Positions 800 through 37,398 of a stretch of DNA of 64,000 nucleotides are shown here, in pieces (the stretch's first letter is position 1; the number at the start of each line of letters is the position of its first letter). Made by a program: the position numbers and the translations under genes. The stretch covers positions 1 to 64,000 of the forward strand of contig DATMXP010000007.1 of assembly GCA_035561515.1 (NCBI GenBank). The letters are read 5' to 3'. A model generated the notes under the pieces. The model saw only the letters and a program-made list of their open reading frames with translations. It made no database searches and was not told the DNA's origin. The stretch is from Terriglobales bacterium (GTDB lineage Bacteria; Acidobacteriota; Terriglobia; Terriglobales; Acidobacteriaceae).

Positions 800-1830
800 G
801 CCGGATTGCAACACTCGGTGAAGGAAACACGCCACTCGTCGAGAGCGCGGAAATCGGCCGTGAATATGGCTTGCGAATTCTCTTCAAACTCGAGATGTGC
901 AATCCAACTGGCTCTTACAAAGACCGGTTTATCGCAGCGGAAATAACGGAGCTTCTGACGCGTAACATCAAGGCCTGCATTGCAACCTCGTCCGGCAACA
1001 CGGGAGCGTCGTTGGCGTCATTTAGTTCAAGGTATCGAATCGCATGCGCGATCTTTGTGAACGAGGCCGCTCCTGCGGGGAAGCTAGCGCAGATGCAGGC
1101 GCACGGGGCGCGAGTGTTCCGAGTGAAAGACTTCGTGACCTCTCCTGAAGTGACGGCCCGCGTGTATCGACGGCTGGACAAGATATCGAAGTGCGGCACA
1201 GTTCCCATGGTGGTTTCTGCCTATCGGTATTGCCCTAACGGGATGAAAGGAGTCGAAAGAATCGCCAAGGAACTGATCGAGCAATCCAATTCGCAGATCG
1301 ATCACGTTTTTGTTCCGGTTGGCGGTGGAGGATTGTTCAGTGCTGTGTCGCGTGGTTTTTCCGCTGACGGGAACCCGCGGACCAAGATTCATGCCGTGCA
1401 GCCAGAAGGTTGCGCCACTGTGGTTTCCGCCTTCGTCGAAGGCCGCAATTCCATCGAACCGATCGTCAGCACAACGTGCGTAAGTGGTCTGTCGGTTCCG
1501 TACGACATTGATGCGAGTCTTGCTTTGTCGCAATTGAGGCAGGGGGGTGGTCGGGGGGTAACCATTTCTGACAGGGATGTCTTCGAAGCCCAACAACTCA
1601 TGATGAAAACAGAAGGAATTTGGTGTGAACCGGCTGGGGCAGCCGCACTTGCAGGATGTCTTCGCGCGAGAAGGGCTGGCTGGATTAACAAGGGCGAGAC
1701 CGTCGTGTGTCTCGTCACAGGTCATGGTTTCAAAGATCCAGAATCATTGGTTAGTGTCGCGAACGCGAATCCAGTCAAACTCATCGACGAAGGTGAAATT
1801 GGAGCAGAACTGCTGGGGGCATCGGCATAA
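796..1830 (+). CDS. PLP-dependent lyase, threonine synthase/ammonia-lyase-like
   Basis: A 344-residue fold-type II PLP enzyme. The PLP lysine is K42 in NPTGSYKDRF, the substrate/phosphate loop is SSGNTG (65-70), and the glycine loop binding the PLP phosphate is GGGGL (176-180). Relatives are threonine synthase, serine/threonine dehydratase and hydroxyaspartate or hydroxyectoine-derived ammonia-lyases. Sequence alone does not separate these. The start is TTG at 796, overlapping the stop of the MBL gene (TTGA), which implies translational coupling. A RidA protein is encoded in the same locus (23778). RidA hydrolyses the enamines that such dehydratases release, which favours an elimination reaction over threonine synthesis (inference). 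Confidence 0.85.
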   Translation: MSRIATLGEGNTPLVESAEIGREYGLRILFKLEMCNPTGSYKDRFIAAEITELLTRNIKACIATSSGNTGASLASFSSRYRIACAIFVNEAAPAGKLAQMQAHGARVFRVKDFVTSPEVTARVYRRLDKISKCGTVPMVVSAYRYCPNGMKGVERIAKELIEQSNSQIDHVFVPVGGGGLFSAVSRGFSADGNPRTKIHAVQPEGCATVVSAFVEGRNSIEPIVSTTCVSGLSVPYDIDASLALSQLRQGGGRGVTISDRDVFEAQQLMMKTEGIWCEPAGAAALAGCLRARRAGWINKGETVVCLVTGHGFKDPESLVSVANANPVKLIDEGEIGAELLGASA

Positions 1831-3290
1831 TGCGCATCGCGGTTGGAGGAATCTACCACGAGTCGAATTCGTTCTTTTCCGAACGCATGACACTAGAGCG
1901 CTTTGCCGAGTCACAGCTTCATTACGGCGAAGAGATTTTTCAGCGCTGGGCGGGAACTTGCTCGGAAATGGCTGGTTTTCTGAAGGGAGCGGAGCGATTC
2001 GGATTCGAGCCGATCGCTACGTTAATGGCTTGGGGCATGCCATCCGGTGTGGTAACGAGTGACACCTTTGAAATACTCGTTGGCGATCTCGTTGCCCGTA
2101 TAGAAGCGTCGATGCCGCTGGATGGCGTCTTACTGAGCCTTCACGGTGCGATGGTATCCGAATCTTTTGACGATGCCGACGGAGAAATTCTGCGCCGTGT
2201 CCGGGCCAAAATCGGTTCTGAAGTTCCGCTTATTGCTACGCTCGACTTTCATGCGAATTTGACCGAACAGATGGTTCGCTGGGCCGATGCACTGGTCGTT
2301 TACGATACCTACCCACATGTGGACCAAGTCGAGCGAGGTCTCGAAGCTGCCGACATCATGCGCAGAATGCTGCGAGAAGGTCTTCGAGTGAGGATGGCGC
2401 TTGCTCGCCGTCCACTTCTGCCGCACATCCTGACCCAGTGCACTGACGGTCCTCCGATGGCGGACATACTTTCGGCTGCCCACGAGTGTGAAAACTCTCC
2501 TGAGATCGTCTGTGTCTCCGTAGCCGCAGGTTTCTCTTACACCGATGTCCCTCAGGCGGGTTTTGCCGTAGTTGCGGTGGCGGAATCACAGGATGCCGCA
2601 GATACGAGCGCTCGTTCGGTGGCCGATCTAGCCTGGCGGAGGCGCATCGAATTCGGGCGTGAGCTGCCAGATCCGAAAACTGCCGTTAAAGAGGCAATCT
2701 CCGCACGGGAAGGACTCACCGTATTGGTCGATGTAGGGGACAATCTCGGAGCCGGCACACCAGGCGACGGAACCATCCTGTTGCAGGAGTTACTCCGGGA
2801 AGGAGCACAAGATGCCCTCGTGCTGCTGTGTGATCCCGAATCGGTTGATGTTTCCATTCGGGCCGGAGTCCGCAGCAAGTTTTCTGCCAGAGTAGGCGGT
2901 AAGCGCGATGCTCATCACGGTGCGCCGGTCGAGGTAAATGGAACAGTGCGACTGTTAAGCGACGGTATTTATCGCAATGTCGGGTTCATGCGCGAAGGAG
3001 TACTCGAAGATCAGGGTCGCACCGCTGTAATTGATGCAGGCGGGGTGGTTCTGGTGCTGACTGAGCGTCGCATGCCGATGTGGAACTTACAGCAGTTGAG
3101 GTCATTGGGTATTGAGCCAACCAAGCTAAAAATAGTCGTGGTGAAGGCTGCGATTGCATACCGGGCTGCTTACGCGCCGATTGCGAACAAGATAATTGAG
3201 GTCAACACGCCAGGGCTGTCTGCGGCAGATGTGAAGGCCTTTAATTATAAGAAATTGGCACGCCCAATCTATCCGCTGGACGAAACATGA
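1830..3290 (+). CDS. M81 family metallopeptidase (MlrC-like)
   Basis: A 486-residue protein with the two-domain layout of the M81/MlrC family (MlrC N-terminal DUF1485 plus C-terminal domain), whose founding member finishes microcystin breakdown. Visible family motifs are HESNSF near the N terminus, LHGAM, LDFHANLTE (metal-binding region) and the C-terminal DVGDNLGAGTPGDGT. Most M81 proteins have unknown substrates. The ATG shares one base with the upstream stop (TAATG). No signal peptide. With the aspartoacylase-like gene two positions downstream it suggests that amide or N-acyl bonds are cleaved in the cytoplasm. Confidence 0.87.
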   Translation: MRIAVGGIYHESNSFFSERMTLERFAESQLHYGEEIFQRWAGTCSEMAGFLKGAERFGFEPIATLMAWGMPSGVVTSDTFEILVGDLVARIEASMPLDGVLLSLHGAMVSESFDDADGEILRRVRAKIGSEVPLIATLDFHANLTEQMVRWADALVVYDTYPHVDQVERGLEAADIMRRMLREGLRVRMALARRPLLPHILTQCTDGPPMADILSAAHECENSPEIVCVSVAAGFSYTDVPQAGFAVVAVAESQDAADTSARSVADLAWRRRIEFGRELPDPKTAVKEAISAREGLTVLVDVGDNLGAGTPGDGTILLQELLREGAQDALVLLCDPESVDVSIRAGVRSKFSARVGGKRDAHHGAPVEVNGTVRLLSDGIYRNVGFMREGVLEDQGRTAVIDAGGVVLVLTERRMPMWNLQQLRSLGIEPTKLKIVVVKAAIAYRAAYAPIANKIIEVNTPGLSAADVKAFNYKKLARPIYPLDET

Positions 3291-4051
3291 GCCTTGCTGG
3301 AAAAACCGCATTAGTCACCGGAGGGGCCACAGGTATTGGATTTGCAGTGGCTAAGTTGCTATCGGATCGAGGCTCACGGGTCGCCATTGGGCAGCCTGAT
3401 CCGGATCAAGCTCGAAGTGCTGCCGCGCAATTACAGACCCCAGAAGCGATCGGCTTAGAGTTGGACATCCGAAGCCACTCTTCGGTAATTCGCTGCGTGG
3501 ACTCACTCATTCACGCTTATGGCAGCCTTGATGTACTCGTGAACAACGCTAGCGTTACAGGCTGCACAGCATTGGAGCCATTCCTGACAAGCAGCCCCAG
3601 ACTGGTTGACTTGATCGTCGATACCAATCTGAAGGGTACGATCTATTGCTCCCAAGCCGCCGCACAGCACATGAAAAGCTCAAAGCGAGGAGGAGCCATC
3701 GTGACCATAGCCTCCGTCGCAGCATATGCAGCACAAGAAAACGCGAGCCTTTACTGCGCTACGAAGAGCGCACAGGTAGCGCTGACGAAGGCCATGGCAA
3801 TTGAGCTAGCGCAACATGGCATTCGGGTGAATTGCGTTGCGCCAGGAGATATTGAGACAGAAACGAGCGCGAATGCGATCAGTGACATAAAGGAGTCAGG
3901 AGCCAGTGGACGATTTCTAAGATATACGCCCGCAGGGCGACGAGGATCTCCTGCCGAAGTTGCGCAAGCAGTCGCTTTCCTCGCGTCGGATGAGGCACGT
4001 TTTATCACGGGCACAACCTTGCTGGTTGACGGCGGATTCCTTGCTTATTAG
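3287..4051 (+). CDS. SDR family oxidoreductase
   Basis: A 254-residue classical short-chain dehydrogenase/reductase. The NAD(P)-binding motif is TGGATGIG, NNA is present (VNNASVTG), and the catalytic YxxxK is in LYCATKSA. It presumably oxidises or reduces a hydroxyl/keto group of a pathway intermediate; substrate specificity cannot be read. The ATG overlaps the M81 stop (ATGA). It is one of three SDRs in the window, the others being at 21833 and 51554. Confidence 0.88.
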   Translation: MSLAGKTALVTGGATGIGFAVAKLLSDRGSRVAIGQPDPDQARSAAAQLQTPEAIGLELDIRSHSSVIRCVDSLIHAYGSLDVLVNNASVTGCTALEPFLTSSPRLVDLIVDTNLKGTIYCSQAAAQHMKSSKRGGAIVTIASVAAYAAQENASLYCATKSAQVALTKAMAIELAQHGIRVNCVAPGDIETETSANAISDIKESGASGRFLRYTPAGRRGSPAEVAQAVAFLASDEARFITGTTLLVDGGFLAY

Positions 4052-4063
4052 GAAACAGAGATT

Positions 4064-5068
4064 TTGAGCGATTTGAATCCAGTTCGGACAATTAAACCGT
4101 GCGACTTCGATCCATCGGAATACAGGCGCGGAGCTAAGTATGCGTTTGGGATGGATTTGGGGGGCGATGGCGTGGTCATTCCGTTGCTTCTGGTTCGTGG
4201 GGGCAGGCCGGGGAAAACCTTAGTGGTCACGGCCGGGGTTCACGGTGACGAGTTCGAAGGCGTTCGCGCCATCATGGAAACGTACGATGAGCTCGATCCG
4301 AACGACATGAGGGGAGATGTTCTCGCGGTGCCGGTTGCGAATCCGCCGGCATTCTGGAACCGGACGCGCACAAGTCCGCTGGATGGTAGCAATCTCGCGC
4401 GCTCTTTCCCGGGAACCGAAAGCGGTACTCCGACGCAGCTCATTGCCTTCCATCTTGGCCGCAGCATCATCGCCCGAGGTGACTTCTACCTGGATCTACA
4501 TAGTGCGGGCATAAAGTTACTGATGCCGAGCATGGTTGGTTTTGCGGCGCATGATGCTCGCGCATGCGAGGCAGCCAAAATTTTTGGAGCGCCTGTTCTA
4601 TGGGCACATCCATCCATTTCGCCCGGAAGGACCATATCTCTTTCAACTTCTCTCCATATTCCATCGTTGTACACCGAGGCACGAGGTGCGGGTCGAATCT
4701 CTCCTGATGATCTGAAGATGTTCAAGCGAGGAATTCGCAACCTGCTTTTCCACCTTTCGATCCTGGAAGGCAGTCCTGAAGTACTTCCGATTGAACACTA
4801 TCTTGAAGGTGGTGGAGATATCGATGCGAGTGTCAGTGCCAGCCACAAGGGCTTTTTTGTCCCCTCCGTGGAGTTATTGGAGGAGGTTCGTGCAAATCAG
4901 TACGTTGGTAAAACTGTGAACCTATACGGACAAGAGGTGGAAAAGTTTATATCGCCTCGGGATGGCGTGATCGGCATGATTCATGCGCTCCCAGTCGTAC
5001 AAGCGGGCGATTCGGTTTTTCTGATTACAGGTAAACACAAACAAGAGCTTCGGCGAGGAGACATTTGA
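4064..5068 (+). CDS. Succinylglutamate desuccinylase/aspartoacylase family deacylase
   Basis: A 334-residue M14-like zinc carboxypeptidase-fold protein of the AstE/AspA family, which removes acyl groups from N-acyl amino acids. The zinc motif HxxE is present as GVHGDEFEG (H60, E63), and a third ligand His is in LDLHSAG. The likely start is TTG at 4064, preceded by AGGAAA at 4051-4056. N-acetyl-diaminobutyrate deacetylases of ectoine catabolism belong to this family, but no ectoine hydrolase is seen nearby. The gene abuts the next one directly (TGA then ATG at 5069). Confidence 0.85.
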   Translation: MSDLNPVRTIKPCDFDPSEYRRGAKYAFGMDLGGDGVVIPLLLVRGGRPGKTLVVTAGVHGDEFEGVRAIMETYDELDPNDMRGDVLAVPVANPPAFWNRTRTSPLDGSNLARSFPGTESGTPTQLIAFHLGRSIIARGDFYLDLHSAGIKLLMPSMVGFAAHDARACEAAKIFGAPVLWAHPSISPGRTISLSTSLHIPSLYTEARGAGRISPDDLKMFKRGIRNLLFHLSILEGSPEVLPIEHYLEGGGDIDASVSASHKGFFVPSVELLEEVRANQYVGKTVNLYGQEVEKFISPRDGVIGMIHALPVVQAGDSVFLITGKHKQELRRGDI

Positions 5069-6061
5069 ATGGCAACGGATTGGAATCGTCGTGACTTCCT
5101 TAGAGCAAGCGTACTTGCCGGGACCGCTGCAGCATTGCCGCAGGTCGTGTTTGCGCGACATGCCGCAAATTCAAATAAGCTTTCGCCCGCAGACTTCAAA
5201 CATCAACTGCGGGGACCCATCGTTTCCATCCCAACCCCCTTTACGCGGGAGTATTCGCTCGATGCTGTCGGCATTCGGCGGATGATCGACAACGCGCTGC
5301 AATATGGAATCCGGATTTTCGTGCTTACTGCCGGGGATAGTCAATATTTGTACTTGTCATACGATGAGATTAAGCAACTTGCTCGACTGGTAACGGACGC
5401 GGTGGGCCAGCGAGGCATCACTATTATTGGAACAGGTGCATGGTGGACAGACAGGACCATCGATTTTGCACATTATGCAGAAAAGATCGGGGCGACAGCA
5501 CTGCAAGTTCTCAAGCCAACCGGTACAAACGAGGACACGGTCGTTGAGCACTTCAAGAGGATCTCTGAGGCGACAAAACTTCCTCTCGTTTTGCATGGCA
5601 ACTTCCCCATGCCTGAACTTGGAAGATTGACTGAGATAGCTTCCGTTGTGGCGCTCAAAGAAGACATTAGTCTGGAGTACTACGTCGATGGAATTATTCG
5701 GTATGGAAACCGCATTAACTGCTTCTCGGGTGGTGGACTAGATTGGTTTGTGGTTGGGCAGCCCTACGGGGCAACCGCCTACTTCGATTCTTTTGCAACG
5801 TTCGCTCCTGAGATTTCTGCCCAATTCTGGGAAGCGGTCAAGCGCAACGATTACAGAGCCGAAACCGAGATCATCGCAAAATACGACCATCCATTCATCA
5901 AGAACTTCTCGGCGCCATTCTGGCACGCAACGCTCGAGTACTTTGGTATTGCGCAACGCTACTTAAGGCCTCCCCAACCAAGTTACACCGACGCTGAAAT
6001 GCTCAAGGTCAAAGAGTTCTACGACCAGATGCATCTGCGTCCACGCAAGAAGTCTGCATAG
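5069..6061 (+). CDS. Tat-exported DapA/NanA-family protein with altered active site
   Basis: A 330-residue dihydrodipicolinate synthase/N-acetylneuraminate lyase family TIM barrel. The N terminus carries a twin-arginine signal (RRDFLRAS at 7-14, then a hydrophobic stretch ending near VVFARHA). Enzymes of this family are normally cytoplasmic. The Schiff-base lysine is probably K197 in ALKEDI. The usual GTTGE pyruvate-binding motif reads AGDSQ (88-92), and the Y in the usual YNxP motif is replaced in HGNFP (176-180). Pyruvate-dependent aldolase chemistry is therefore doubtful. It is followed by a kelch protein of the sialic-acid mutarotase type. Confidence 0.85.
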   Translation: MATDWNRRDFLRASVLAGTAAALPQVVFARHAANSNKLSPADFKHQLRGPIVSIPTPFTREYSLDAVGIRRMIDNALQYGIRIFVLTAGDSQYLYLSYDEIKQLARLVTDAVGQRGITIIGTGAWWTDRTIDFAHYAEKIGATALQVLKPTGTNEDTVVEHFKRISEATKLPLVLHGNFPMPELGRLTEIASVVALKEDISLEYYVDGIIRYGNRINCFSGGGLDWFVVGQPYGATAYFDSFATFAPEISAQFWEAVKRNDYRAETEIIAKYDHPFIKNFSAPFWHATLEYFGIAQRYLRPPQPSYTDAEMLKVKEFYDQMHLRPRKKSA

Positions 6062-6072
6062 GGGGACAACAT

Positions 6073-7032
6073 ATGTTGAGGAGAACTGCAATGTTGATGG
6101 GGGCATTAGCGCTTTTGAGTTCTGCACAAGCGGAACCCCTGAAGTGGAGAGAAATGGCAGAGTTGCCTCGGCCGGTTGCGGGATATATGGCTGGGGTAAG
6201 TAAGGGGAAACTTCTGATCATCGGGGGCAGTTATTGGAATGACGGTCAGAAGTACTGGTTTGACCAGGTTCAGATTTACGATCCTGCAACGAACAAGTGG
6301 AGTGTTGGCAGTTCGTTGCCGGAGGGACGCAGTGATGCTGCATCGGCGACCTTGGGCGAAGATATCTACGTTTTCGGCGGTGGGAGTAACTCGAACGTAG
6401 TGAAGGATGCGCTCGTGTTACATGAGGGAAAGTGGAATAGAGTTCCGAATGCTGACCTGCCGGAACCTCGTCTCTACTCCAATGCCGTTGCTGCACGTGG
6501 ATGCATCTATCTCCTGGGCGGTATGTCGAAGGCGGGTGATTACAAAAATATGAGCAATTCGTTTTGGCGCTGGCGTCCCGGAAACAACAATTGGGAGATA
6601 CTTCCCCCGCTGCCGGGGCCCGGCAGAATCAATCACGCCATGGCCGAAGTCAACGGCGTGATTTATGTATTCGGCGGTGCGGCCTCAGGACCGAAAGACG
6701 TCCAAAACCTGAACGACGCTTACAGCTTCGATCTAAACACCCGCAAGTGGACCCGGCTGTCTGATCTCAACGTGGCAAATCGCTCGTGGTGGGCGATCGG
6801 CGTTGGAACTCGTGCGCTCATCCTCGCCGGATACACAGATACGTTTGCCCGGGAAGTTTATTGGTACCAGCCTGGCCACGGACTCGAACCGGCTGGAGAA
6901 CTGCCTCACGGTTTGGCCGATGTAAAGTTCTATCAAATCGGAAATATGGTGGTAGGCACAGGTGGCGAAGCCGGACCTGGCGTCCGAGGGAAGTGGACAG
7001 TGAAAGCCGAACTTCCGACTGATCACTCGTAG
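6073..7032 (+). CDS. Secreted kelch-repeat protein, NanM-like
   Basis: A 319-residue protein with a signal peptide (about 1-20, ending AQA) followed by a kelch beta-propeller. Repeats contain paired Gly plus conserved Tyr/Trp: LLIIGGSYW...NKWSV, IYVFGGG...KWNRV, IYLLGGM...NNWEI, IYVFGGA...RKWTRL, and two weaker ones. The nearest characterised type is periplasmic N-acetylneuraminate epimerase (NanM), which mutarotates sialic acid; galactose-oxidase-like folds are the alternative. A G-rich ribosome site (GGGGG at 6061) precedes the ATG. Last gene of the first operon. Confidence 0.8.
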   Translation: MLRRTAMLMGALALLSSAQAEPLKWREMAELPRPVAGYMAGVSKGKLLIIGGSYWNDGQKYWFDQVQIYDPATNKWSVGSSLPEGRSDAASATLGEDIYVFGGGSNSNVVKDALVLHEGKWNRVPNADLPEPRLYSNAVAARGCIYLLGGMSKAGDYKNMSNSFWRWRPGNNNWEILPPLPGPGRINHAMAEVNGVIYVFGGAASGPKDVQNLNDAYSFDLNTRKWTRLSDLNVANRSWWAIGVGTRALILAGYTDTFAREVYWYQPGHGLEPAGELPHGLADVKFYQIGNMVVGTGGEAGPGVRGKWTVKAELPTDHS

Positions 7033-7138: not shown

Positions 7139-8470
7139 ATGCCTGCCGTAGCCACCCTCGATCTCGACCGTCGCGATAGAAGTATTCGATCCAAAACCAA
7201 AGGATCGTTGCAGCGATACGAACGCGCTCAGAAGACGTTAGCCGGAGGGGTATCCAGTGGATTGCGCCGAGCTGCCCGACCCTATCCTTTGTATTTCAGT
7301 CGCGGGAAGGGAGCACATGTTGAAGACGTGGATGGCAATGTTTACACGGATTACGGGCTGGCTTGGGGCCCTCTGATTCTGGGGCAATCCCCTGATGAAA
7401 TCAGCGAAGCGGTAGCGGAACAGTTAAGGCATGGAATCACCTTCGGCGCCCAGCATGATCTTGAGTTCGAGGTCGCCGAGCAACTGACTGAAATCATTCC
7501 TTGCGCCGACCAGGTTTGTTTCGCGAACAGCGGCACGGAAATCGTGCAAGTTGCGCTGCGGTTAGCGCGGGCGTACACGGGACGGGCAAAGTTCGTGAAA
7601 TTCGAAGGGCACTATCATGGATGGGAAGACAGCGTTCTGGTCAGCTACCATCCCACGGCTTCGCAATTGTCTGCTGGCAAAATCGTTCCGGCGCCGGTTG
7701 CTTGCGGACAACGTGCTCACGACAGCGTTCTGATCGCTCAATGGAACGACCGTGCATCGGTCGAACAATTGTTTGCAGAACATGCACAACAGATCTCTGC
7801 GGTAATATGCGAACCTCTACTGTGCAACAGTGGGTGCATTCCAGCGGAGCCGGGATTTCTTGAGTTTCTCCGGGAGATAACCTCCCAGAACGGTGCACTC
7901 TTAATCTTTGATGAAGTGATCACGGGTTTTCGTCTTCACCTGCAAGGGGCGCAGGGTGTCTACGGAGTCGCGCCGGATTTGGCCACATACGCCAAGGCGG
8001 TCGGCGGCGGTCTACCTTTCAGTGTTCTTGCAGGACGAAAAGAGTTCATGAGTTTGATCGCCGAAGGCACGGTCGTGCATGCTGGTACGCTCAACGGAAA
8101 TCCTGTCGTGCTGGCTGCCGCCAAGGCCACTCTCGATCTTCTCTCGAAAAATAATGGCTCGGTCTACAAGGATCTGGAGAAGCTCGGTTCTCGATTACGA
8201 GATGGAATTGAGATCCGTCTTCGCGAGCGCGGATATTCAGTCGTGACTTCGGGGGCAGGTGCGGTGTTTCACGTTTCCTTTATGGAACGGCCGGCACGAT
8301 GCTACCGAGATATGCTGAACGCTGATACTCGGCAGTACAGTGATTTTGCTTTAGCGCTACTCGATGAAGGAGTACTCGTTCTCCCAGACGGCCGCTGGTA
8401 CTGCTCGACTGCCCACACAGTAGAAGATATCGACGCGACGCTTCATGCAGTGGATCGTGCGCTTTCGTAA
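7139..8470 (+). CDS. Class III aminotransferase, glutamate-1-semialdehyde aminomutase-like
   Basis: A 443-residue PLP aminotransferase of class III. Motifs: SGTEIVQVALRLAR, the PLP-binding FDEVITGFR and the lysine K286 in TYAKAVGGG. It is closest in style to glutamate-1-semialdehyde 2,1-aminomutase (HemL), but its place in a catabolic regulon argues against a tetrapyrrole role. More likely it deaminates an omega-amino or beta-amino acid intermediate (inference). An ATG closer to the fold is not obvious, so 7139 is kept as start. The class IV aminotransferase follows 14 bp later. Confidence 0.85.
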   Translation: MPAVATLDLDRRDRSIRSKTKGSLQRYERAQKTLAGGVSSGLRRAARPYPLYFSRGKGAHVEDVDGNVYTDYGLAWGPLILGQSPDEISEAVAEQLRHGITFGAQHDLEFEVAEQLTEIIPCADQVCFANSGTEIVQVALRLARAYTGRAKFVKFEGHYHGWEDSVLVSYHPTASQLSAGKIVPAPVACGQRAHDSVLIAQWNDRASVEQLFAEHAQQISAVICEPLLCNSGCIPAEPGFLEFLREITSQNGALLIFDEVITGFRLHLQGAQGVYGVAPDLATYAKAVGGGLPFSVLAGRKEFMSLIAEGTVVHAGTLNGNPVVLAAAKATLDLLSKNNGSVYKDLEKLGSRLRDGIEIRLRERGYSVVTSGAGAVFHVSFMERPARCYRDMLNADTRQYSDFALALLDEGVLVLPDGRWYCSTAHTVEDIDATLHAVDRALS

Positions 8471-8484
8471 ACAGGAGAATATTT

Positions 8485-9429
8485 ATGGTTTCAGAACCGC
8501 TGGTATATATCCGTGGTCAGCTTCTTCCTGCATCGCAGGCTCACGTTTCCATCTACGATTTCGGAATTGTGCTTGGAGCGACAGTTACGGATCTGCTCAG
8601 AACCTTTCGGCAGGAACCCTATCGCCTGGAAGATCACATACGCCGTTTTTATGATTCGTGCAAATATGCGCGAATCACGCCTCCAATTTCAGCTAACGAA
8701 ACAGCCGAGATCACAAAAGATTTAACTCGGCATAATGCCAAACTTGCGGGCTCCGATGCGGAGTTGGCTTTGGTTTACTTCATTACGCCCGGAGAGAATT
8801 TTGTGTATGCAGGTTCCGCGGCCGGTGGTGGCAGTAAACCGACTCCGACGTTGTGTATACATTCATTTCCAATGCCGTTTCACCTTTTCCGCCGATTCTT
8901 TGAAACCGGGTTACACCTCGTTACACCTGCAACACGTCACGTCCCACCGGAATGTGTGGATCCCAAAATCAAGAATCGCAGCCGATTGCACTGGTGGCTG
9001 GCGGAGCAGGAAGCACATCTTGTGGAGCCCACGGCCATGCCGCTTCTACTTGATCTGCAAGGGAATCTAACAGAAACCAGCGGATCGAATTTTCTTCTGG
9101 TCAAGAATGGCACGGTTTATTCGCCGCCGCCGCGAAATATCTTGTTGGGAATAAGCCGTAAGGTAGTGATTGAGCTTTGCCAAAAACTGCGTATTCCCTT
9201 CGTTGAGAGGGATCTTCAGGTGTACGACGCCCTTACGGCAGACGAGGCGTTCGTGACAACCACTCCGTACTGCATGGCCCCCGTAACCCGTATCAATGGA
9301 ACTACGATAGGGGATGGGGCGGTCGGAGGACCGGTGTTCAATCGAATTCTTGAAGCGTGGAGCTACGCGGTTGACATCGATATTCGTGGCCAAGTGCTTG
9401 GATTGAAATCAGCCAACTCAGCTGTTTAG
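8485..9429 (+). CDS. Class IV aminotransferase (BCAT/D-amino-acid transaminase type)
   Basis: A 314-residue fold-type IV PLP enzyme. The PLP lysine is likely K161 in DPKIKNRSRL, and the family motif GNLTETSGSNFLLV binds the PLP region. Relatives are branched-chain aminotransferase, D-alanine aminotransferase and aminodeoxychorismate lyase. AGGAG at 8473-8477 gives a clear ribosome site. Having class III and class IV transaminases side by side under one operator implies that an amino group is moved twice or that two amino acids are released from the substrate (inference). Confidence 0.87.
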   Translation: MVSEPLVYIRGQLLPASQAHVSIYDFGIVLGATVTDLLRTFRQEPYRLEDHIRRFYDSCKYARITPPISANETAEITKDLTRHNAKLAGSDAELALVYFITPGENFVYAGSAAGGGSKPTPTLCIHSFPMPFHLFRRFFETGLHLVTPATRHVPPECVDPKIKNRSRLHWWLAEQEAHLVEPTAMPLLLDLQGNLTETSGSNFLLVKNGTVYSPPPRNILLGISRKVVIELCQKLRIPFVERDLQVYDALTADEAFVTTTPYCMAPVTRINGTTIGDGAVGGPVFNRILEAWSYAVDIDIRGQVLGLKSANSAV

Positions 9430-9518: not shown

Positions 9519-11024
9519 TTAAGCATCTTTTGGAGTGGCCAGATCGAGTCCAAGAACTAAGCCGCTTAGCTCAGATTCGTCGCGTGCCGGCTGAAGGAAG
9601 CCGAACAACCATCCAGCCCCGAACGTTACAAATGTGCCCACGATTGCATAGTAAAAGAACGCGATTTCAGTCTGCCAGGCTAACAGCGAAACGCTGAGCA
9701 ATCCGATGATGGATCCCCCAATCGCAGAGGTTCCACGGGTTCGTTTCGTCAGCATTCCAAGGAGGAACATTCCGAGTACTGGTCCTCCGAGGAAGCTGTT
9801 GATCATGTTGAAGGCGTTGATAATCGGGCCAAGCCGATCAGCAAACAAAGCCGCAAGCGTCGCCGCTGCACCCCATCCCACCGTGCCAACTCGCCCCACA
9901 AAAACGGTTTCGCTGTCACTGCAATTAGGCCGAAACAATCGTTTGTAAAAGTCGACCGTTGTTGCAGTTGTCAAGGCATTGATGCCGGCGCTCATAACAG
10001 CCATTGACGCGGCAAAAATGGATGCAATGATCAGTCCCGAAAACCATCCGCCTAATTCGTTGACCACAAAGAAGGGCAGAATTGCATCCATGCTAGGCAA
10101 CCCCTGTAACGATTGGGGATGGAACTCGTAGAACGCGTATAGAACTGGCCCAACTAAGTACAGCATCAGGGAAACCGGAACGAGAATAATAGCGTCCAGC
10201 AGAATCGATTTCCGGCCCTCCTTTAGGGAACGCGTGGTGAAGTAACGCTGCAAATAGGCCTGGTCAGTGCCGAGAGTGGAGAGCGCCATGAATCCGCCAC
10301 CAATTGCAGCTGCCCAGAAAGTCGTAATTTGTGTGAGGTCGGTCGAGAAATTAAATAGATGGAATCGGCCTGCGCGTTCCGAAACATCCACCACAGCCCG
10401 TAGACCGCCCGGCACATGGGAAATCGACAGGCTCACGACGGTTATTAACCCGAAGATTAGAATCGAAAACTGCAGAACATCGGTCCAAATGACGGCCCTC
10501 ATGCCACCCAGCGTCGTGTACAACGTGGTGCAGACTCCCATCATGAGAATGCATCCCCACAATGGCAATCCGGTTATCAGAGACAAAACCAGCGATGGTG
10601 CATAAATCACAATTGCGACATGAGATCCACGCAGCAACATAAAGATAGCGCTGCCCACAAGCCGGGTTTTCAGGTCAAAGCGACGTTCCAAATATTCATA
10701 CGCCGTGAAGAACTTGAATCGTGAGTAGAAAGGCATGAACAAAAACATAACGGCTGGAGCGACAAACAAATATGTCCAGCTGGACCAGACCAATTCAAGA
10801 TTGTTTTGATATGTCCAAGCTGGCGCACCCATATAGCTGATCGCACTCATATCAGCCGCAACCAGCGAAATTGCAACGGGTAGTGCACGCATATTGCGCC
10901 CACCCAGAAAGAAATCGCCAGTAGACGTCTTCTTACGGTAGAAGAGACTGCCAATAATACTGATAGCGGCGATGTACCCGCCCAGAATGGCCCATTCCGT
11001 GATGCCGAAATTGTTCACATTCAT
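9519..11024 (-). CDS. Sodium:solute symporter (SSS family)
   Basis: A 501-residue inner-membrane protein with about 13 hydrophobic segments. The family signature near the N terminus is intact: FFLGGRNMRALPVAISLVAAD, followed by ISYMGAP. SSS members import sialic acid (SiaT), sugars, amino acids or carboxylates with Na+. It is transcribed away from the TonB receptor, and each has its own operator copy, so the pair would carry the substrate across the outer and inner membranes. The ATG lies directly next to the operator (11023-11041), leaving no room for a normal leader. Confidence 0.9.
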   Translation of the reverse strand: MNVNNFGITEWAILGGYIAAISIIGSLFYRKKTSTGDFFLGGRNMRALPVAISLVAADMSAISYMGAPAWTYQNNLELVWSSWTYLFVAPAVMFLFMPFYSRFKFFTAYEYLERRFDLKTRLVGSAIFMLLRGSHVAIVIYAPSLVLSLITGLPLWGCILMMGVCTTLYTTLGGMRAVIWTDVLQFSILIFGLITVVSLSISHVPGGLRAVVDVSERAGRFHLFNFSTDLTQITTFWAAAIGGGFMALSTLGTDQAYLQRYFTTRSLKEGRKSILLDAIILVPVSLMLYLVGPVLYAFYEFHPQSLQGLPSMDAILPFFVVNELGGWFSGLIIASIFAASMAVMSAGINALTTATTVDFYKRLFRPNCSDSETVFVGRVGTVGWGAAATLAALFADRLGPIINAFNMINSFLGGPVLGMFLLGMLTKRTRGTSAIGGSIIGLLSVSLLAWQTEIAFFYYAIVGTFVTFGAGWLFGFLQPARDESELSGLVLGLDLATPKDA

Positions 11025-11128: not shown

Positions 11129-11157
11129 TTGACTTTCGGTATGGAGTGGTTTAGAAA
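11129..11157 (+). promoter_or_regulatory. Promoter of TonB receptor 1
   Basis: TTGACT at 11129-11134, a 17-bp spacer and TAGAAA at 11152-11157 make a good sigma70-type promoter. Operator copy 4 begins on the last base of the -10 box. Confidence 0.6.
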
Positions 11158-11175
11158 TCGCCGACTGTCGACAGT
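11157..11175. promoter_or_regulatory. Regulon operator copy 4
   Basis: The right half-site GTCGACAGT is perfect and the left matches 6/9. It covers the predicted transcription start of TonB receptor 1, as expected for repression. Confidence 0.65.
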
Positions 11176-11224
11176 TTGCAGTAGCCAATTGCTCGACGAA
11201 CTTGCCTTGTGGGGGATGGCGCGT

Positions 11225-14200
11225 ATGAGGTTCACCTCGCTTGTACTGGTTATTTTGCTGATTTCGGGGCTTGCATGGACGCAAACAACTACCCAAGGAG
11301 CTATTGTTGGAACCGTATACGACCAGTCGGGAGCGGTTGTGCCTGGTGCCGTCGTTAAGGCCGTCAATGTCTCCACTGGCATTGAAAATACCACCAAAAG
11401 TAATAGCCAAGGTGATTTCCGGTTTCGTCTTCTGCCCCCAGGTACATACTCCATCGGCGTAGAGCACGAAGGGTTCCAACGGTCGGAACTGCAGGGCATT
11501 GTGGTTGGCGTAGGCACTGTGGTGCGTGCGGATGTGGGGATGCAGATGGGGGCAGCTAGCTCGGAAATCACGGTTAGCTCCGATTCGGTTCAGGTGAATA
11601 CGGAAGACGCCTCGAAAGGCAGTGTGATCGGAGCGGAGCAAATCCGGCATCTGCCGCTCAATGGACGCGAGTTCCTTAAGTTAGCCGCACTGGAAGCGGG
11701 TGCGGTTTCGGGTAATACGAAGCGCGGCGTCCACGGAAGTAAAGGGGTGGACGTCAGCTTTAACGGCTCTCGTAGTGGCTACAACAGCTACTACGTTAAT
11801 GGTGCCGCAAATACAGATCCCCTTTACAACCAGATGCAGTCTTCACCGTCACTGGACGCGGTAGGCGAGTTCCGAGTGATGACCAACATGTACTCGGCGC
11901 AATACGGCAGGTCGGGCGGCGCGGTTGTGTCAATTGTCACCAAATCCGGCACCAACAATTTTCACGGCACCGCGTATGAGTACCACCGGAACAAGGCGCT
12001 CGATGCCTTGCCATACTTCTTCAAGGGAGAAAGAAACGAGCTTTCGAACTATTTGTTCAATCAGTTCGGCGGAACAATCGGTGGACCCATTATCAAGAAA
12101 AAGACTTTCTTTTTCTTCAATGCCGAGTTCTTTCGGCAAAAGAAACCAGGGCAACAGATGGTAAGTTTTGCACCCACAGCTGCAGAGCGACAGGGTGATT
12201 TCAGCAACACCATCAATCCGTATACAGGGAACCCTGTTCAATTGGTTAATCCGTTTACGGGAGATCCGATACCCGGAAACGTTCTTCCCGAGTCATTAAT
12301 CAGTCCCATTGGAAGGAAGTTGATGGAAATATGGCCGGAGCCGAACCATTCCGGCGACGCGTTCCTGAACCTGCACCTGTTCCGCTCGGGTAAGCAGCGG
12401 CAGAAGAAATACCTGACCCGAATCGACCACCACTTCTCCGAAAAAGACGTCATTTCCGGAACTTTCGACTTTAACAACTACGACAACTTGAATCCAGGTA
12501 TGAATGAATACGGAGATAAAGAATATGTCGAACACAGCCGTACCTGGTCGGGTTCATGGACGCATACCTTCACTCCCACGCTGGTCAACGATCTCAAGGG
12601 AAGTTTCTCTTCAATTCAGGCCGGAGACCAGTTCGCGCTGAATGACAAGAACTATTGCGTAGAGTGGGGTATCCACCCGATGACGAATACTCTGAAAGGC
12701 ACATGCCGGATTCTGTTGTACACAATCGGGTATCAGCGTTACGACATCGGCAATGGAGGGGATTACAAGCACCATAACAACAGCTTTTATCTGAAGAATA
12801 ATTTGATGTGGACGAAAGGGAATCATTCGTTCGCGATCGGGGGAGAGTTCACCCGCGACATGTTTAACTGGCAGTACAACGCCGGCAGCACTGAATATTA
12901 CATCGGGCTGTTGGACGGAATGCCCGGGTACGAAAGCATCTATGGTGTCACTGGCACCGTGTTCGGCGATCTGCTCACAGCCATACCCAACCTCATTAAC
13001 TACGGACTTGGCGGTACGGCTGGATCTCCAGATATGCACTTTAAGCGCAATGTCATCGGTGGCTACTTTGAAGATACGTGGAGAGTTAAGCCGTGGCTGA
13101 CATTGACGCTTGGGATCCGGTACGACTACGAAGAGCCATTTGCTAATACCGACAACAAATTCATGACTCTCGATTTCGACACAGGATTGCCTCGCTATTC
13201 GAAGGGCGCCCCGCAGGACCTTTTAGAGCTAGTGCAATTCAATTACGAAACGGGCGGTCCCAACCGGCCGTATGATCCCAACAAAACGAATTTTGCGCCG
13301 CGTTTTGGTTTTGCTATCAGGCCATTCAATGACAACGGTACTGCGATTCGAGGCGGATACGGGCTGTTTTACACAACCGAGAATGCGTTCAACACCATGT
13401 ACGGATCATGGGTGGCTCCATTCCAGGGCTTGGTAGGTGCCAGTGTTGGATATGCTCCGTTCTGGCAGGATAACCAGCGGCACCTGCAGACAATGGACCA
13501 ACCGCCCTATGGGCTGGATTATGTCCGCGGTAAGAGTCCTGGCTTCTTCCTGCCCAATACTCCTTATTATCCAACCGGTTATGTACAGCAGTGGAATCTG
13601 ACGGTTAACCGGGACCTCGGCCACAAGATGGGACTTGAGGTTGGATACGTTGGCAGCCATGGAGTAAACCTTAATGGCCAGATAAACATACAAGCTTATT
13701 CAGCGGACCTGCACAAGAAGGTTATAGCGAACAACTTCAGCAACTTTGGCCTGCGTACCAAAGGATTTAACTCACAATACGATGGCCTCCAGGCGACTTT
13801 CAAGAAGGCCACCTCGCATGGCCTCAACCTCTTGGTGAATTACACCTGGTCGCATACCTTTGCCCAATCATCCAATGACGATGCGCTGGAAAACCTTTTT
13901 ACGGACGTTACAGCATCCGGCACAATTGCGAAGAAGATGTGGAGCCAAGCAGACTTCGATGTTCGTCATCGACTGACTATTTCAGGAGGTTACGAACTGC
14001 CTTTCGGCCGAGGAAAGGCTTTCGGCCCAAACTGGAATGGATTTCTAAACCAAGTGTTGGGCGGCTGGCGTTCGAATTTCATTTACACGTTCCAGAGCGG
14101 ATTGCCGTACACGGTTTACACTTCGGCGCTTCGTTTTCCAGATCGTACGTGTGATGGAAACCTTCCAGCCGGTGAAAGGACAGCCGATCGCTGGTTCGAC

Positions 14201-14524
14201 TACACTTGTTTCAGTACTCGTCCGCCGACCCCATACACAGATCCGAACACGGGAGTGACAACCCAAATCAATCTGCAGGGTGATTCCCGGCCGAATATTA
14301 TTGCGGGTCCACGGCAAAACAGCCTCGATTTCGGTATCGAAAAGTACTTTACGATCCGCGAAGGCCACACACTGCAACTCCGAGCTGAGGCGTTCAATAT
14401 ACTGAATCACCCGAATCTACTGAGCCCGTCGGGCAATTACTTCTTCAACTCTGCTTCTGGGGCAAAAATCACAACTGCGCGAGATGGACGAGATATTCAA
14501 CTAGCTTTGCGATACTCGTTCTAA
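11225..14524 (+). CDS. Oar-like TonB-dependent receptor 1
   Basis: About 1099 residues. Signal peptide MRFTSLVLVILLISG..., then a carboxypeptidase-regulatory-like domain (GAIVGTVYDQSGAVVPGA ... LLPPGTYSI), a plug-like region (SGYNSYYVNGAANTDP, GRSGGAVVSIVTKSGTN) and a long outer-membrane barrel ending in the aromatic signature RYSF. This is the Acidobacteria Oar/OmpA-like TonB family, thought to import oligosaccharides or siderophores; no TonB box was identified. The chosen ATG at 11225 has GGGGG at 11211-11215; an ATG at 11216 is possible. Longer readings would begin inside the promoter and are rejected. A strong terminator follows. Confidence 0.9.
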   Translation: MRFTSLVLVILLISGLAWTQTTTQGAIVGTVYDQSGAVVPGAVVKAVNVSTGIENTTKSNSQGDFRFRLLPPGTYSIGVEHEGFQRSELQGIVVGVGTVVRADVGMQMGAASSEITVSSDSVQVNTEDASKGSVIGAEQIRHLPLNGREFLKLAALEAGAVSGNTKRGVHGSKGVDVSFNGSRSGYNSYYVNGAANTDPLYNQMQSSPSLDAVGEFRVMTNMYSAQYGRSGGAVVSIVTKSGTNNFHGTAYEYHRNKALDALPYFFKGERNELSNYLFNQFGGTIGGPIIKKKTFFFFNAEFFRQKKPGQQMVSFAPTAAERQGDFSNTINPYTGNPVQLVNPFTGDPIPGNVLPESLISPIGRKLMEIWPEPNHSGDAFLNLHLFRSGKQRQKKYLTRIDHHFSEKDVISGTFDFNNYDNLNPGMNEYGDKEYVEHSRTWSGSWTHTFTPTLVNDLKGSFSSIQAGDQFALNDKNYCVEWGIHPMTNTLKGTCRILLYTIGYQRYDIGNGGDYKHHNNSFYLKNNLMWTKGNHSFAIGGEFTRDMFNWQYNAGSTEYYIGLLDGMPGYESIYGVTGTVFGDLLTAIPNLINYGLGGTAGSPDMHFKRNVIGGYFEDTWRVKPWLTLTLGIRYDYEEPFANTDNKFMTLDFDTGLPRYSKGAPQDLLELVQFNYETGGPNRPYDPNKTNFAPRFGFAIRPFNDNGTAIRGGYGLFYTTENAFNTMYGSWVAPFQGLVGASVGYAPFWQDNQRHLQTMDQPPYGLDYVRGKSPGFFLPNTPYYPTGYVQQWNLTVNRDLGHKMGLEVGYVGSHGVNLNGQINIQAYSADLHKKVIANNFSNFGLRTKGFNSQYDGLQATFKKATSHGLNLLVNYTWSHTFAQSSNDDALENLFTDVTASGTIAKKMWSQADFDVRHRLTISGGYELPFGRGKAFGPNWNGFLNQVLGGWRSNFIYTFQSGLPYTVYTSALRFPDRTCDGNLPAGERTADRWFDYTCFSTRPPTPYTDPNTGVTTQINLQGDSRPNIIAGPRQNSLDFGIEKYFTIREGHTLQLRAEAFNILNHPNLLSPSGNYFFNSASGAKITTARDGRDIQLALRYSF

Positions 14525-14567: not shown

Positions 14568-14624
14568 GTCCTTAAGTAAATGGTTCAGTGATCCGCCATT
14601 CATGGCAGAGGAGGTTTGGGAGGG

Positions 14625-16385
14625 TTGCGCACAACTGTACTTTCTCCGCGCTCAGCGTTACTTGTCTCCTATTTACTGTATTCACTGGGCCTGCATGGCG
14701 CGGAACCGATGAAAACTTCGAACGCCGCCAAGGTGGAGTCCCCCTCCATTGTTGCCAGGTTCGCCGAAAGGGAATCGCCTCATGACAATGTAGCCAAACC
14801 TGTGATTCTAAGCGACGGCCGCTTACTTGGCCTCTCGCTTCAGACCACCGGAAATAAGCAGGAGATGTTTGGCCGATATTCGAAAGACAATGGGTATAGT
14901 TGGAGCGTTCCTCAATTCTTGTTCGCTCTCCCAGAACACGTAGGCGGCTTCGGTTACTTTTACGCATTTGCGGACCGTGACGGGGAAGTGCATGTGTTCT
15001 ACCTCAATGACGGTAATACTGGGGTGATTCTCCCAAAATCTCCCGACGAAAAGGGTGTCCGCGAGGGAAACGTCCTCGACATCTGGCATGTGGTGTCACG
15101 CCATGGAGCGACGGAGTGGTCCCATGCAAAGAGCATCTGGACAGGCAGAGCGGGCGACCCACTTTCGGTCATTCAATTGAAGAGCGGCCGTATCTTGTTT
15201 CCGATTTCATACATGACTCCTCGCTCCTGGTCGAACCGAGGCGGCGGATTCAAGGAGTTCGAATACGTTGGTACCTTCAGCACCAGTGCCATCTACTCCG
15301 ATGACGGCGGAAAAACGTGGATACAGTCCTCCGATGAACTGGTAGTGGCAGTTCCGGATCTATCGACTATCGGAGGTATGGAACCGGTGGTTCTGGAACT
15401 GCAGGACGGCAGGGTATGGATGTTGATCCGCACCCAACTCGGCCGATTCTACGAATCGTTCTCCCAAGATGGCGGCGAACACTGGACGCGCCCGAAACCG
15501 TCGTCGATTACTGCGTCTGAATCGCCAGCCGCGCTTGTTCGATTGCCGAACCAGGACATTCTCATGATATGGAATGAAGCGCGTCGATATGCCTATGCTT
15601 ACGGCGGGCGACAGGTGCTGCATGCGGCAATTTCTTCCGATGAGGGACGAACCTGGCGTGGTCATCGAGAGATCTTTCGCGATCCGGCACGGAAGGACCC
15701 GCCACCACCTTCCGGCGACTGGGGTATTTCCTATGCGTTTCCGGTGGTCGCCAGAGATGGAGCTGTCATTTTTTCGGCATGGGTGGAGACGGGAAACGCG
15801 CGTCACATGTTCCGGCTTGATCCACGATGGCTGATCGAGACTCGTCAAGCGACAGACTTCAGCACTGGTCTCGACGACTGGACTGTCTTCGGGACGCGCG
15901 GCGTTGAATTAGTTCGAGTTGGTCAGCAATCCAAGTCTGTGCTGTCGATACGCCGAAGCGATCCTGAGTGGCCAGCCGGAGCCGTATGGAACTTTCCGAT
16001 CGGCAGGGCGGGTACTCTGAAATTGAGGTTAATGCTCCGCGATGGGTTCGGAGGAAACACTCTCGGGCTGACTGACCACTATTCTGTACCGTTTGATGGG
16101 CGGGATGTTTTTCATAATGTTTTCAATTTTCCTATTCGTCCAGACGGAGTTCTGTTGGGAAAGAAGCTTACCGTCAATGTCTGGCACGACCTCGAGTTCC
16201 GTTGGGACACTGCTCGCCGCGTCTGTACAGTTCAAGTTGATGGGAAGCGCATAGGATCGGTGGATTCACAACATGTCAGCCGAGGCATCAATTACTTGCG
16301 GTTTCACGCCACGCCTGAGGAACCGGACTCTGGATTGTTAGTGCAGTCAGTTCAGGCGGATGTGTCAGAGGGGTGGCCGAGGTAG
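14625..16385 (+). CDS. Exported sialidase-like BNR protein 1 with C-terminal jelly-roll
   Basis: About 586 residues. Signal sequence (SALLVSYLLYSLGLHGA), then a BNR/sialidase six-bladed propeller with Asp boxes YSKDNGYSW, YSDDGGKTW, SQDGGEHW and SSDEGRTW. A C-terminal region of about 180 residues starting at DFSTGLDDWTVFG looks like a lectin-like jelly-roll. The Arg of the GH33 FRIP motif is not found; the equivalent reads VAKPVIL. A retained Arg lies in MLIRTQLGRFYESFS. Start is probably TTG at 14625 with AGGAGG at 14609-14614; TTG at 14616 is the alternative. It is a close paralogue of the gene at 26717. Confidence 0.8.
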   Translation: MRTTVLSPRSALLVSYLLYSLGLHGAEPMKTSNAAKVESPSIVARFAERESPHDNVAKPVILSDGRLLGLSLQTTGNKQEMFGRYSKDNGYSWSVPQFLFALPEHVGGFGYFYAFADRDGEVHVFYLNDGNTGVILPKSPDEKGVREGNVLDIWHVVSRHGATEWSHAKSIWTGRAGDPLSVIQLKSGRILFPISYMTPRSWSNRGGGFKEFEYVGTFSTSAIYSDDGGKTWIQSSDELVVAVPDLSTIGGMEPVVLELQDGRVWMLIRTQLGRFYESFSQDGGEHWTRPKPSSITASESPAALVRLPNQDILMIWNEARRYAYAYGGRQVLHAAISSDEGRTWRGHREIFRDPARKDPPPPSGDWGISYAFPVVARDGAVIFSAWVETGNARHMFRLDPRWLIETRQATDFSTGLDDWTVFGTRGVELVRVGQQSKSVLSIRRSDPEWPAGAVWNFPIGRAGTLKLRLMLRDGFGGNTLGLTDHYSVPFDGRDVFHNVFNFPIRPDGVLLGKKLTVNVWHDLEFRWDTARRVCTVQVDGKRIGSVDSQHVSRGINYLRFHATPEEPDSGLLVQSVQADVSEGWPR

Positions 16386-16412
16386 TATCACCGGCTGCAA
16401 CATCAACAAGCT

Positions 16413-17531
16413 ATGGGAAACATGATCGAATATCTAGAGTCGCTTGTCGTTTATGACAACCCGAGACCCCACGTCCACAGCCGTCATGGTTATCACCCTG
16501 GGCTGGCAGAACTACCTGATGGAGAATTGATCGGGTTGTTTCTGTTCGCTGAGGCATTCGAAGCTCCGAATGGAACGACTGTCGTCTCACGATCTCGCGA
16601 TTCAGGCAAAACATGGGAGTTGCAGGGGCCGGTATACGACAAGTCTGTGATCGGATTTGAGACCACAGACACAATGAAACCTTGCGTTCTGCGTGACGGC
16701 ACCCTGGTTGCGACCGGATATCGATTCCATCGGCATGATCCGGAACAAGCGATCGCCATACCGGAGACAGGAGGTTTTCAGCCCGGCGACAACATCGTCT
16801 GTTTTTCAACCGATGGAGGGCACACCTGGACAGTACCGCAGGCTATTCAGCGCAGTTACCCTGAACTACTGGAATTGTCCGGTCCCTGCATCGAGACTGC
16901 TTCTGGCGATCTGGTAGCAACTGCAGGTTTCTACAACTTACCGGATGGTTCCAATCCCACAGGCAGGTTTGGAGTAATTCTGCGAAGCCGCGACAAAGGC
17001 AAAAGCTGGGACGATGACGTCTACTTTGTGCCACCCGGCAAGATTACCCCATGGGAGACTCGGGTATGTGAGATGCAACCCGGACGCTTGGTTGCAATCG
17101 TCTGGGCCTATGATGCCGATAACCAGAGACACCTCTCCAACCGCGTAACCGTTTCGAACGACAATGGTTTTACGTGGTCTCCGCTCATTGACACCGGCCA
17201 CATGGGTCAGGCTTCGAATTTGCTCTACTTCGGTGGAGATTATCTCGTCACGATTCATGCACACCGCGCCGAAGACCCGGGCATTTATATACGAATCGTG
17301 GATTTCTCGAACAATCACTGGAGGCTCGTCGATGAGACTTTGATCTGGGGCCGTGCTCTTGGCGAACAGACTAGATCTGGGCAATCGATGCGACAGATGT
17401 TCAGTTCGTTGCGGTTCGGCCAGCCATCCATCATGCGCCTGTCCAATGGAGAATTTATTGCGAGTCACTGGAGTATTGAGGATGGGCAAGGAAAGATCAG
17501 GGCGCACCGCTTGAGAATTTCCATCGACTAA
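16413..17531 (+). CDS. Sialidase-like BNR protein 2, no signal peptide
   Basis: 372 residues, all propeller. Asp boxes: SRDSGKTW, STDGGHTW, SRDKGKSW, SNDNGFTW. No signal peptide or membrane segment is seen, so this copy should be cytoplasmic, unlike the four exported ones. At the FRIP position it reads GYHPGLAELPDGELI, lacking the sialate-binding Arg. An internal ATG at 16422 is an alternative start. It sits 27 bp after sialidase 1 and 20 bp before the sialidase-SGNH fusion, probably co-transcribed. It may process imported oligomers (inference). Confidence 0.78.
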   Translation: MGNMIEYLESLVVYDNPRPHVHSRHGYHPGLAELPDGELIGLFLFAEAFEAPNGTTVVSRSRDSGKTWELQGPVYDKSVIGFETTDTMKPCVLRDGTLVATGYRFHRHDPEQAIAIPETGGFQPGDNIVCFSTDGGHTWTVPQAIQRSYPELLELSGPCIETASGDLVATAGFYNLPDGSNPTGRFGVILRSRDKGKSWDDDVYFVPPGKITPWETRVCEMQPGRLVAIVWAYDADNQRHLSNRVTVSNDNGFTWSPLIDTGHMGQASNLLYFGGDYLVTIHAHRAEDPGIYIRIVDFSNNHWRLVDETLIWGRALGEQTRSGQSMRQMFSSLRFGQPSIMRLSNGEFIASHWSIEDGQGKIRAHRLRISID

Positions 17532-17551
17532 TTTGCAAAGGAAGTTCCTGG

Positions 17552-19390: not shown

Positions 19391-19452
19391 GCCACTTTGC
19401 AAATTCGGCTGTTCAACCATAAACAGCCGCCAAAAGTAACCTCGTATTCTGC

Positions 19453-19481
19453 TTGTAAATTGTCTAGGCAAGTGCTAAAAC
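19453..19481 (+). promoter_or_regulatory. Promoter of the FG-GAP 1 operon
   Basis: TTGTAA at 19453-19458, a 17-bp spacer and TAAAAC at 19476-19481, with a TGC extension before the -10. The perfect operator starts on the -10 box. Transcription should begin near 19488, leaving a leader of only about 12 nt. Confidence 0.5.
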
Positions 19482-19498
19482 TGTCGACGGTCGACAGT
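19480..19498. promoter_or_regulatory. Regulon operator copy 5, perfect palindrome
   Basis: ACTGTCGACGGTCGACAGT is a perfect 9-1-9 inverted repeat ending one base before the ATG of the FG-GAP 1 gene. It defines the consensus for the other copies. Each half also contains the self-complementary GTCGAC, so the site reads as a tandem TGTCGAC-like repeat as well. Confidence 0.85.
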
Positions 19499-19499
19499 T

Positions 19500-22633: not shown

Positions 22634-22651
22634 TACACGGAGGCATTAAAG

Positions 22652-23773: not shown

Positions 23774-23777
23774 GGAA

Positions 23778-26647: not shown

Positions 26648-26716
26648 CCCTCGGGCTTTGAGAACAAGCGGCCAACGATTAGGAACTACAAAAGAGGAAA
26701 ACAGCAGACCATAACT

Positions 26717-37270: not shown

Positions 37271-37398
37271 TACCGATCTCCTGATGTGGAATGCCAAATG
37301 CTATCGGTACCGAAATGGGAAAGTCGGAATGCGAAACCGAGGAGCGGCCTTGCCGATTACATTATGTCCGCAAATGTTGAACCGGTCACAATAGAAGC

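Follow-up and report, generated by a model that had tools for sequence, protein, structure and literature searches.

A putatively Tat-exported clade of DHDPS/NAL-superfamily proteins with an altered active site in Acidobacteriota

Introduction

Members of the well-studied DapA/NanA superfamily have a single lysine chemistry and a proton relay in common, and those known so far are, to our knowledge, regarded as cytoplasmic. The locus analyzed here raises the question of what role such a barrel would play when it carries an apparent export signal and lacks most of the familiar catalytic residues. A first-pass annotation of the window, i.e., the whole 64,000-nucleotide stretch of DNA under study, had ascribed both features to the product of the ORF at 5069–6061. 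No publication was found that describes an exported member of the DHDPS/NAL superfamily or a comparable Acidobacteria locus, a negative result that is weak evidence considering the limited literature coverage.

Predicted export signal

The ORF at 5069–6061 (+) encodes a protein of 330 aa; its ATG closely follows an AGGAG-type ribosome site and directly abuts the stop codon of the preceding gene. The N terminus of the protein reads MATDWNRRDFLRASVLAGTAAALPQVVFA, which contains WNRRDFLRASVLAGTAAALPQVVFA, and the signal sequence region (residues 1–30; 5069–5158, +) presents an RR-x-F-L motif in the form NRRDFL, a stretch of moderate hydrophobicity (GRAVY 1.08), and, near VFA, a plausible predicted cleavage site. 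The clear RR signal noticed in the first-pass annotation was indeed found, even though the Pfam TAT_signal model (PF10518; E 8e-4, 19.7 bits) stayed under its cut-off of 22.7. The motif was repeated in 4/4 close orthologues (WNRREFL, WSRREFI) whose overall identity was only 60–67%, and for this reason it is not considered a chance occurrence. Moreover, TatC was encoded in the source genome, and residues 1–35 were unstructured and placed outside the barrel in the AlphaFold2 model. A candidate twin-arginine signal thus precedes the DapA/NanA barrel, and a putatively exported DapA-family protein, whose predicted location would be the periplasm, is well supported at the level of sequence.

Family, fold and active-site residues

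The DHDPS model of Pfam (PF00701) matched residues 47–316 with an E-value of 7.8e-20 and 71.2 bits against a cut-off of 22.1. The AlphaFold2 model, built from 11 relatives, had a mean pLDDT of 86.4, exceeding 90 across most of the barrel, and displayed a (beta/alpha)8 fold with C-terminal helices that aligned to many superfamily members with Z of about 30–32. The closest solved folds among the first 50 entries included YagE, ketodeoxy-galactarate dehydratase, DapA, and NanA, with tied scores, and every PDB entry matched in a profile search was named as a DHDPS/NAL-superfamily enzyme, with no close relative among them. By profile and predicted fold, the protein therefore belongs in PF00701. Ketodeoxyglucarate dehydratase and DapA were its best NCBIfam matches, and none of the curated cut-offs was reached (KdgD 62.9 vs 373.95 bits, dapA 54.9 vs 206.15, nanA 20.2 vs 382). 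Since two motifs of the characterized enzymes were absent, the protein was not filed as DapA, NanA, or KdgD.

The roles of the DapA active-site residues have been described (PMC3188589), and the GXXGE and Tyr/Lys features are common to NAL and DHDPS enzymes (PMC5380162). In the alignment with DapA, AGDSQ (residues 88–92) occupied the place of GTTGE, His176 and Gly152 stood at the positions of Tyr133 and Tyr107, respectively, and the Arg138-bearing loop was deleted, being seven residues shorter. Lys197 corresponded to the Schiff-base Lys161 of DapA and was likewise followed by Glu; in the confidently modeled barrel it lay on strand 6, and AGDSQ followed strand 2, as in DapA. Therefore, the earlier reading of the sequence, namely the GTTGE-to-AGDSQ change, the loss of the YNxP Tyr, and the retention of a candidate Schiff-base Lys, was borne out by the alignment and, if anything, understated the divergence, as Tyr107 and the Arg138 loop were lost too.

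A putatively exported clade

Relatives were sought in genomes related to the source genome and in public genomes. Peptide-pattern scans based on the single sequence gave no match in genome contigs or viral contigs, an alignment-based scan of public genomes yielded 22 loci, and plasmid records contained only relatives at about 23–27% identity among the matches listed. Four Acidobacteriota genomes contained close orthologues (60–67% identity), and more distant relatives occurred in Bryobacterales, Chloracidobacterium, and other Acidobacteriota. Further distant relatives came from one metagenome bin each assigned to Lentisphaerae, Dehalococcoidia, Actinomycetota, and Planctomycetota, the Planctomycetota relative being only a fragment; such bin assignments may be wrong on short contigs.

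In a quick 90-sequence tree with some long branches, 22 proteins, hereafter the exported group, fell on one side of a branch with an SH-aLRT of 93. A Tat motif was visible in 16 of them, four had Sec-like N termini, all from one genus-level group, one had no signal (L097), and one was cut at a contig end (L039). The survey of exported relatives proposed at the outset thus revealed a whole clade, and the protein of the window is, as far as sequence data go, no one-off. This group joined a 10-member sister group (starred branch, 95), apart from all canonical proteins, and the long-branched Tat protein L048 also joined it apart from them (starred branch, 99). Members of the sister group had a similarly altered site and, in 9/10 cases, no signal (the exception being L049, in genome G062), which indicates that the unusual active site does not depend on export. 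L040–L047 also contained a cytosolic WGDSL-type relative with an altered site; close to it, in L040, L042, L044, L046, and L047, lay another DHDPS gene with a different odd motif (GAGGE, Lys-Trp).

The lysine was conserved in 22/22 exported-group, 10/10 sister, and 57/57 other sequences, and since it is so widespread in the superfamily, its retention alone is no proof of catalysis. Conversely, Thr44, Tyr107, Tyr133, and the GXXGE Glu of DapA were absent from all 22 members; the carboxylate-binding motif was replaced by AGDSQ in the protein of the window, with Glu at that position in 0/22. Position 176, equivalent to Tyr133 of DapA and Tyr137 of NanA, was never Tyr, being occupied by His (14/22), Gln (4/22), or Lys (4/22), and because of these eight substitutions, no new acid/base residue could be named. 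A different set of residues was invariant across the group: Thr87, Gly89, Tyr93, Glu198, Gly221, and Gly222, which together with Trp126 (21/22) were fixed at strand ends, besides Phe253, Asp273, Pro275, Arg297, Arg300, and Pro302. Position 90 was either Asp or Asn. Judging from these sequences, a new constraint pattern has replaced that of DapA, which argues against a decaying enzyme.

Gene cluster in the window

The DapA-like gene was the sixth of nine codirectional genes (+), most of which abutted or overlapped. It was preceded by genes for an MBL-fold hydrolase (50–799; PF00753, 2.3e-21), a threonine synthase-like PLP-dependent lyase/synthase of the PALP family (796–1830; PF00291, 2.1e-76, under the NCBIfam cut-offs), an M81 (MlrC-like) metallohydrolase (1830–3290; PF07364, 3.3e-94; PF07171, 6e-51), a short-chain dehydrogenase (SDR; 3287–4051; PF13561, 4.4e-58), and an AstE/AspA-type deacylase (4064–5068; PF24827, 2.9e-32) distantly related to DoeB (TIGR02994, 129.6 bits, cut-off 402.7). 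It was followed by genes for a Kelch beta-propeller with a Sec-like N terminus (6073–7032), distantly NanM-like (PF24996 NANM, 76.3 bits, cut-off 45) and better matched by generic Kelch models, a glutamate-1-semialdehyde aminomutase-like class III aminotransferase (7139–8470; PF00202, 2.8e-60; NF000818, 408.5 bits, cut-off 398), and a class IV aminotransferase of the branched-chain or D-amino-acid type (8485–9429; PF01063, 8.5e-40).

Beyond this set, a sodium:solute symporter was encoded on the opposite strand (9519–11024, −; TIGR00813, 3.1e-77), whose best solved match, the first of 16, was 5nv9 (E 1.2e-69), which we take to be the sialic acid symporter SiaT. It was followed by an outer-membrane beta-barrel protein with a carboxypeptidase-regulatory-like domain (11129–14524, +; PF25183, 4.5e-189; PF13620, 2.1e-20), which may be TonB-dependent and Oar-like. 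A downstream block (14616–28570, +) comprised, according to Pfam, five BNR_2 sialidase-like genes (starting at 14616, 16413, 17552, 22652, and 26717), of which the third was fused to a GDSL esterase (17552–19390), two FG-GAP genes (starting at 19500 and 24179), and one SDR gene (starting at 21833). Some 7 kb past this sialidase-like block, a large serine-recombinase-like ORF (35645–37297, −) was recognized by eye from its translation.

Related loci and the adjoining contig

Five other genomes contained the gene set, complete or partial, with numerous BNR_2 genes, a SiaT-like symporter, and another, cytosolic barrel resembling NanA nearby. Between the PALP and class IV aminotransferase genes, the gene order was kept in L072/L089, L073/L088, L074/L090, and L087, either in full or truncated where a contig ended, at 55–81% identity; the DapA-like gene, 60–67% identical across loci, was held as well as its cytosolic neighbors. 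The MBL gene was present in L072, L073, and L086, the last of which (genome G062) carried a rearranged set. A smaller module was found in L091, and mostly in L092, comprising the DapA-like gene, Kelch, BNR, SDR, symporter, cytosolic DHDPS, AstE-like, and GSA-like genes. Relatives in other lineages (e.g., L095, L100, and L101) had different gene neighbors, and thus not every member of the clade is associated with the operon. HpcH/HpaI aldolase genes lay near the exported DHDPS-like gene in L093 (2899–3741) and L095 (12456–13220), both from genomes without the operon, and one protein (L105:16107–18134) joined BNR_2 sialidase-like and NanM-like Kelch domains, linking both functions.

The window starts at base 1 of its contig (C7). 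The last 10 kb of another contig of the source genome (C42; L110) held two BNR genes, an FAA hydrolase, a GntR regulator, and, at the very end and pointing away from the window, a cytosolic DHDPS 77% identical to its L087 counterpart. Since this end holds the matching left part of the locus, with the regulator and DHDPS arranged as in L087 and L089, both contigs probably adjoin, judging by gene order; no sequence overlap between C42 and C7 was found. The cytosolic DHDPS genes (L110:9029–9940, −; L072:15857–16795; L087:3909–4823, −; L091:15567–16490) formed a group with GTMGG or GTMGI in place of GTTGE and with Tyr107, Tyr133, and Lys all kept. Counting both contigs, at least seven BNR_2 sialidase-like genes occurred in about 35 kb (window 14616–28570 and L110 3707–7307), together with two FG-GAP proteins, an unusual sialidase-like locus for a soil bacterium in which NanE was not found.

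Metabolic context

The gene-cluster context frames the role of the DapA-like protein better than the protein alone. The source genome encoded a canonical DapA on contig C39 (L003), and lysine synthesis was rejected as the role of the DapA-like protein on these grounds. The canonical sialic acid catabolic (nan) cluster is defined by nanA/K/E (PMC10570557). Neither NanE (PF04131) nor the GlcNAc 2-epimerase family (PF07221) had a match in the source genome, rated 99.5% complete, so the standard Neu5Ac pathway appears incomplete and ordinary sialic acid catabolism was discarded as a full explanation. An ectoine-like pathway was also considered, given the DoeB/EutE-like deacylase (129.6 vs 402.7 bits) and a EutA-like protein in a variant cluster (114 vs 318 bits), and was retained as an analogy only.

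Altogether, the putatively exported barrel, Kelch and BNR proteins, together with the outer-membrane protein and the symporter, suggest that a glycan, or a sugar derived from one, is degraded and taken up, and that it has sialic-acid-like features. An N-acylated amino sugar acid would be compatible with the cytosolic barrel, SDR, deacylase, PLP lyase, and two aminotransferases.

Proposed function and alternatives

Judging from its signal and neighbors, the DapA-like protein probably acts on a sugar-like substrate outside the cytoplasm. It would be exported folded via Tat and would be a periplasmic Schiff-base enzyme (Lys197) of DapA/NanA-superfamily origin. With the DapA proton relay (Thr44, Tyr107, and Tyr133) replaced and the Arg138 loop lost, the DapA or NanA reaction should no longer occur; more likely, a keto or aldehydo sugar would form an imine and then be cleaved, dehydrated, or isomerized, either prior to its uptake by the symporter of the locus or in parallel with it, and the sugar would probably be released by the exported sialidase-like proteins. 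That the protein is such a periplasmic Schiff-base enzyme, with acid/base residues other than those of DapA and a keto or aldehydo sugar handled by the locus as substrate, is the preferred reading and is given slightly less than an even chance. This reading is favored by the Tat motif and the Sec-like N termini found in its place, by the universal lysine accompanied by other fixed residues at the strand ends, and by the exported Kelch and BNR proteins, outer-membrane protein, and SiaT-like symporter that recur near relatives; against it, several members come from outside the operon-bearing Acidobacteriota orders and have neighborhoods without BNR or Kelch genes. Its fuller version, in which the site of the clade was rebuilt around a lone lysine and catalyzes a sugar or sugar-acid lyase or isomerase step in a sialic-acid-like glycan degradation pathway of soil Acidobacteriota, is put forward tentatively and is, as a whole, rather unlikely.

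The main rival is a catalytically silent periplasmic sugar-binding protein that passes its ligand to the symporter or the Kelch protein, Lys197 being a ligand contact or part of a salt bridge. The disappearance of the whole proton relay and of the Arg138 loop speaks for it, and sugar binding would be compatible with the conserved aromatics Tyr93 and Trp126 close to the strand ends, but an invariant lysine with its following Glu goes beyond what binding needs, and neither another periplasmic binding protein nor a matching partner transporter was seen in the cluster; overall, we regard silent binding as doubtful. A periplasmic pyruvate aldolase or dehydratase of known type (e.g., a sialate, KDG, or KDO lyase) with substitute residues would agree with the best NCBIfam names and the nearest folds. 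In the DHDPS/NAL superfamily, moreover, backbone amides of the GXXGE loop hold the carboxylate (PMC3188589), and a changed loop could still supply them. All NCBIfam scores were, however, far under the cut-offs (64.6 bits vs 278), the Tyr common to NAL and DHDPS enzymes (PMC5380162) is missing, and the second, cytosolic, Tyr-keeping barrel of the locus could perform that step, which makes a known activity improbable. The least probable alternative, a cytoplasmic enzyme whose N terminus merely resembles a Tat signal, would accord with the subthreshold PF10518 score and with the signal-free sister proteins and L097, but it has to contend with the RR-x-F motif and hydrophobic stretch shared by 16/22 members with otherwise unlike N termini, with the Sec-like N termini of four more, and with the unstructured residues outside the modeled barrel.

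If the imine-forming reading holds, a conserved exported clade that retains the lysine alone would be a test of how far an active site can be exchanged without loss of imine chemistry, and would open a hitherto uncharacterized glycan-degradation pathway in common soil bacteria. If the protein is a binding protein instead, it would exemplify the conversion of an aldolase into a periplasmic receptor.

Comparison with known systems

Among known systems, E. coli DapA (DHDPS; PDB 1dhp; mutants 1s5t, 1s5v, 1s5w, 2a6n, and 3i7q) has the same barrel (Z about 30) and a lysine, Lys161, that corresponds to Lys197 and likewise precedes a Glu, at about 20% identity; the 330-aa protein differs in its predicted export signal, in the replacement of Thr44, Thr45, Tyr107, Tyr133, and the GXXGE Glu, and in the deletion of the Arg138 loop. 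KdgD (5-dehydro-4-deoxyglucarate dehydratase) and YagE (PDB 4ur7, 5hwj, and 2v8z) are the nearest folds, with Z of 31.9 and 31.5 tied with many others, and KdgD is among the best NCBIfam names, yet far under the family cut-offs; the 330-aa protein differs from both in its predicted export signal and its active-site residues. The AmGH181 sialidase of Akkermansia muciniphila (PDB 8axi and 8axs; PMC10067855) is matched not by the DapA-like protein but by a neighbor, one BNR protein at the end of C42, which resembles it across the propeller and a CBM-like domain (E 1e-22). N-acetylneuraminate lyase NanA (PDB 2wnn, 1nal, and 5c54) shares the fold and the lysine, and differs in keeping GXXGE and Tyr137 and in being described as cytoplasmic; its model gave only 20–31 bits, and NanE was not found in the source genome, whereas the sialidase-, NanM-, and SiaT-like genes around the DapA-like gene suggest a related sugar context.
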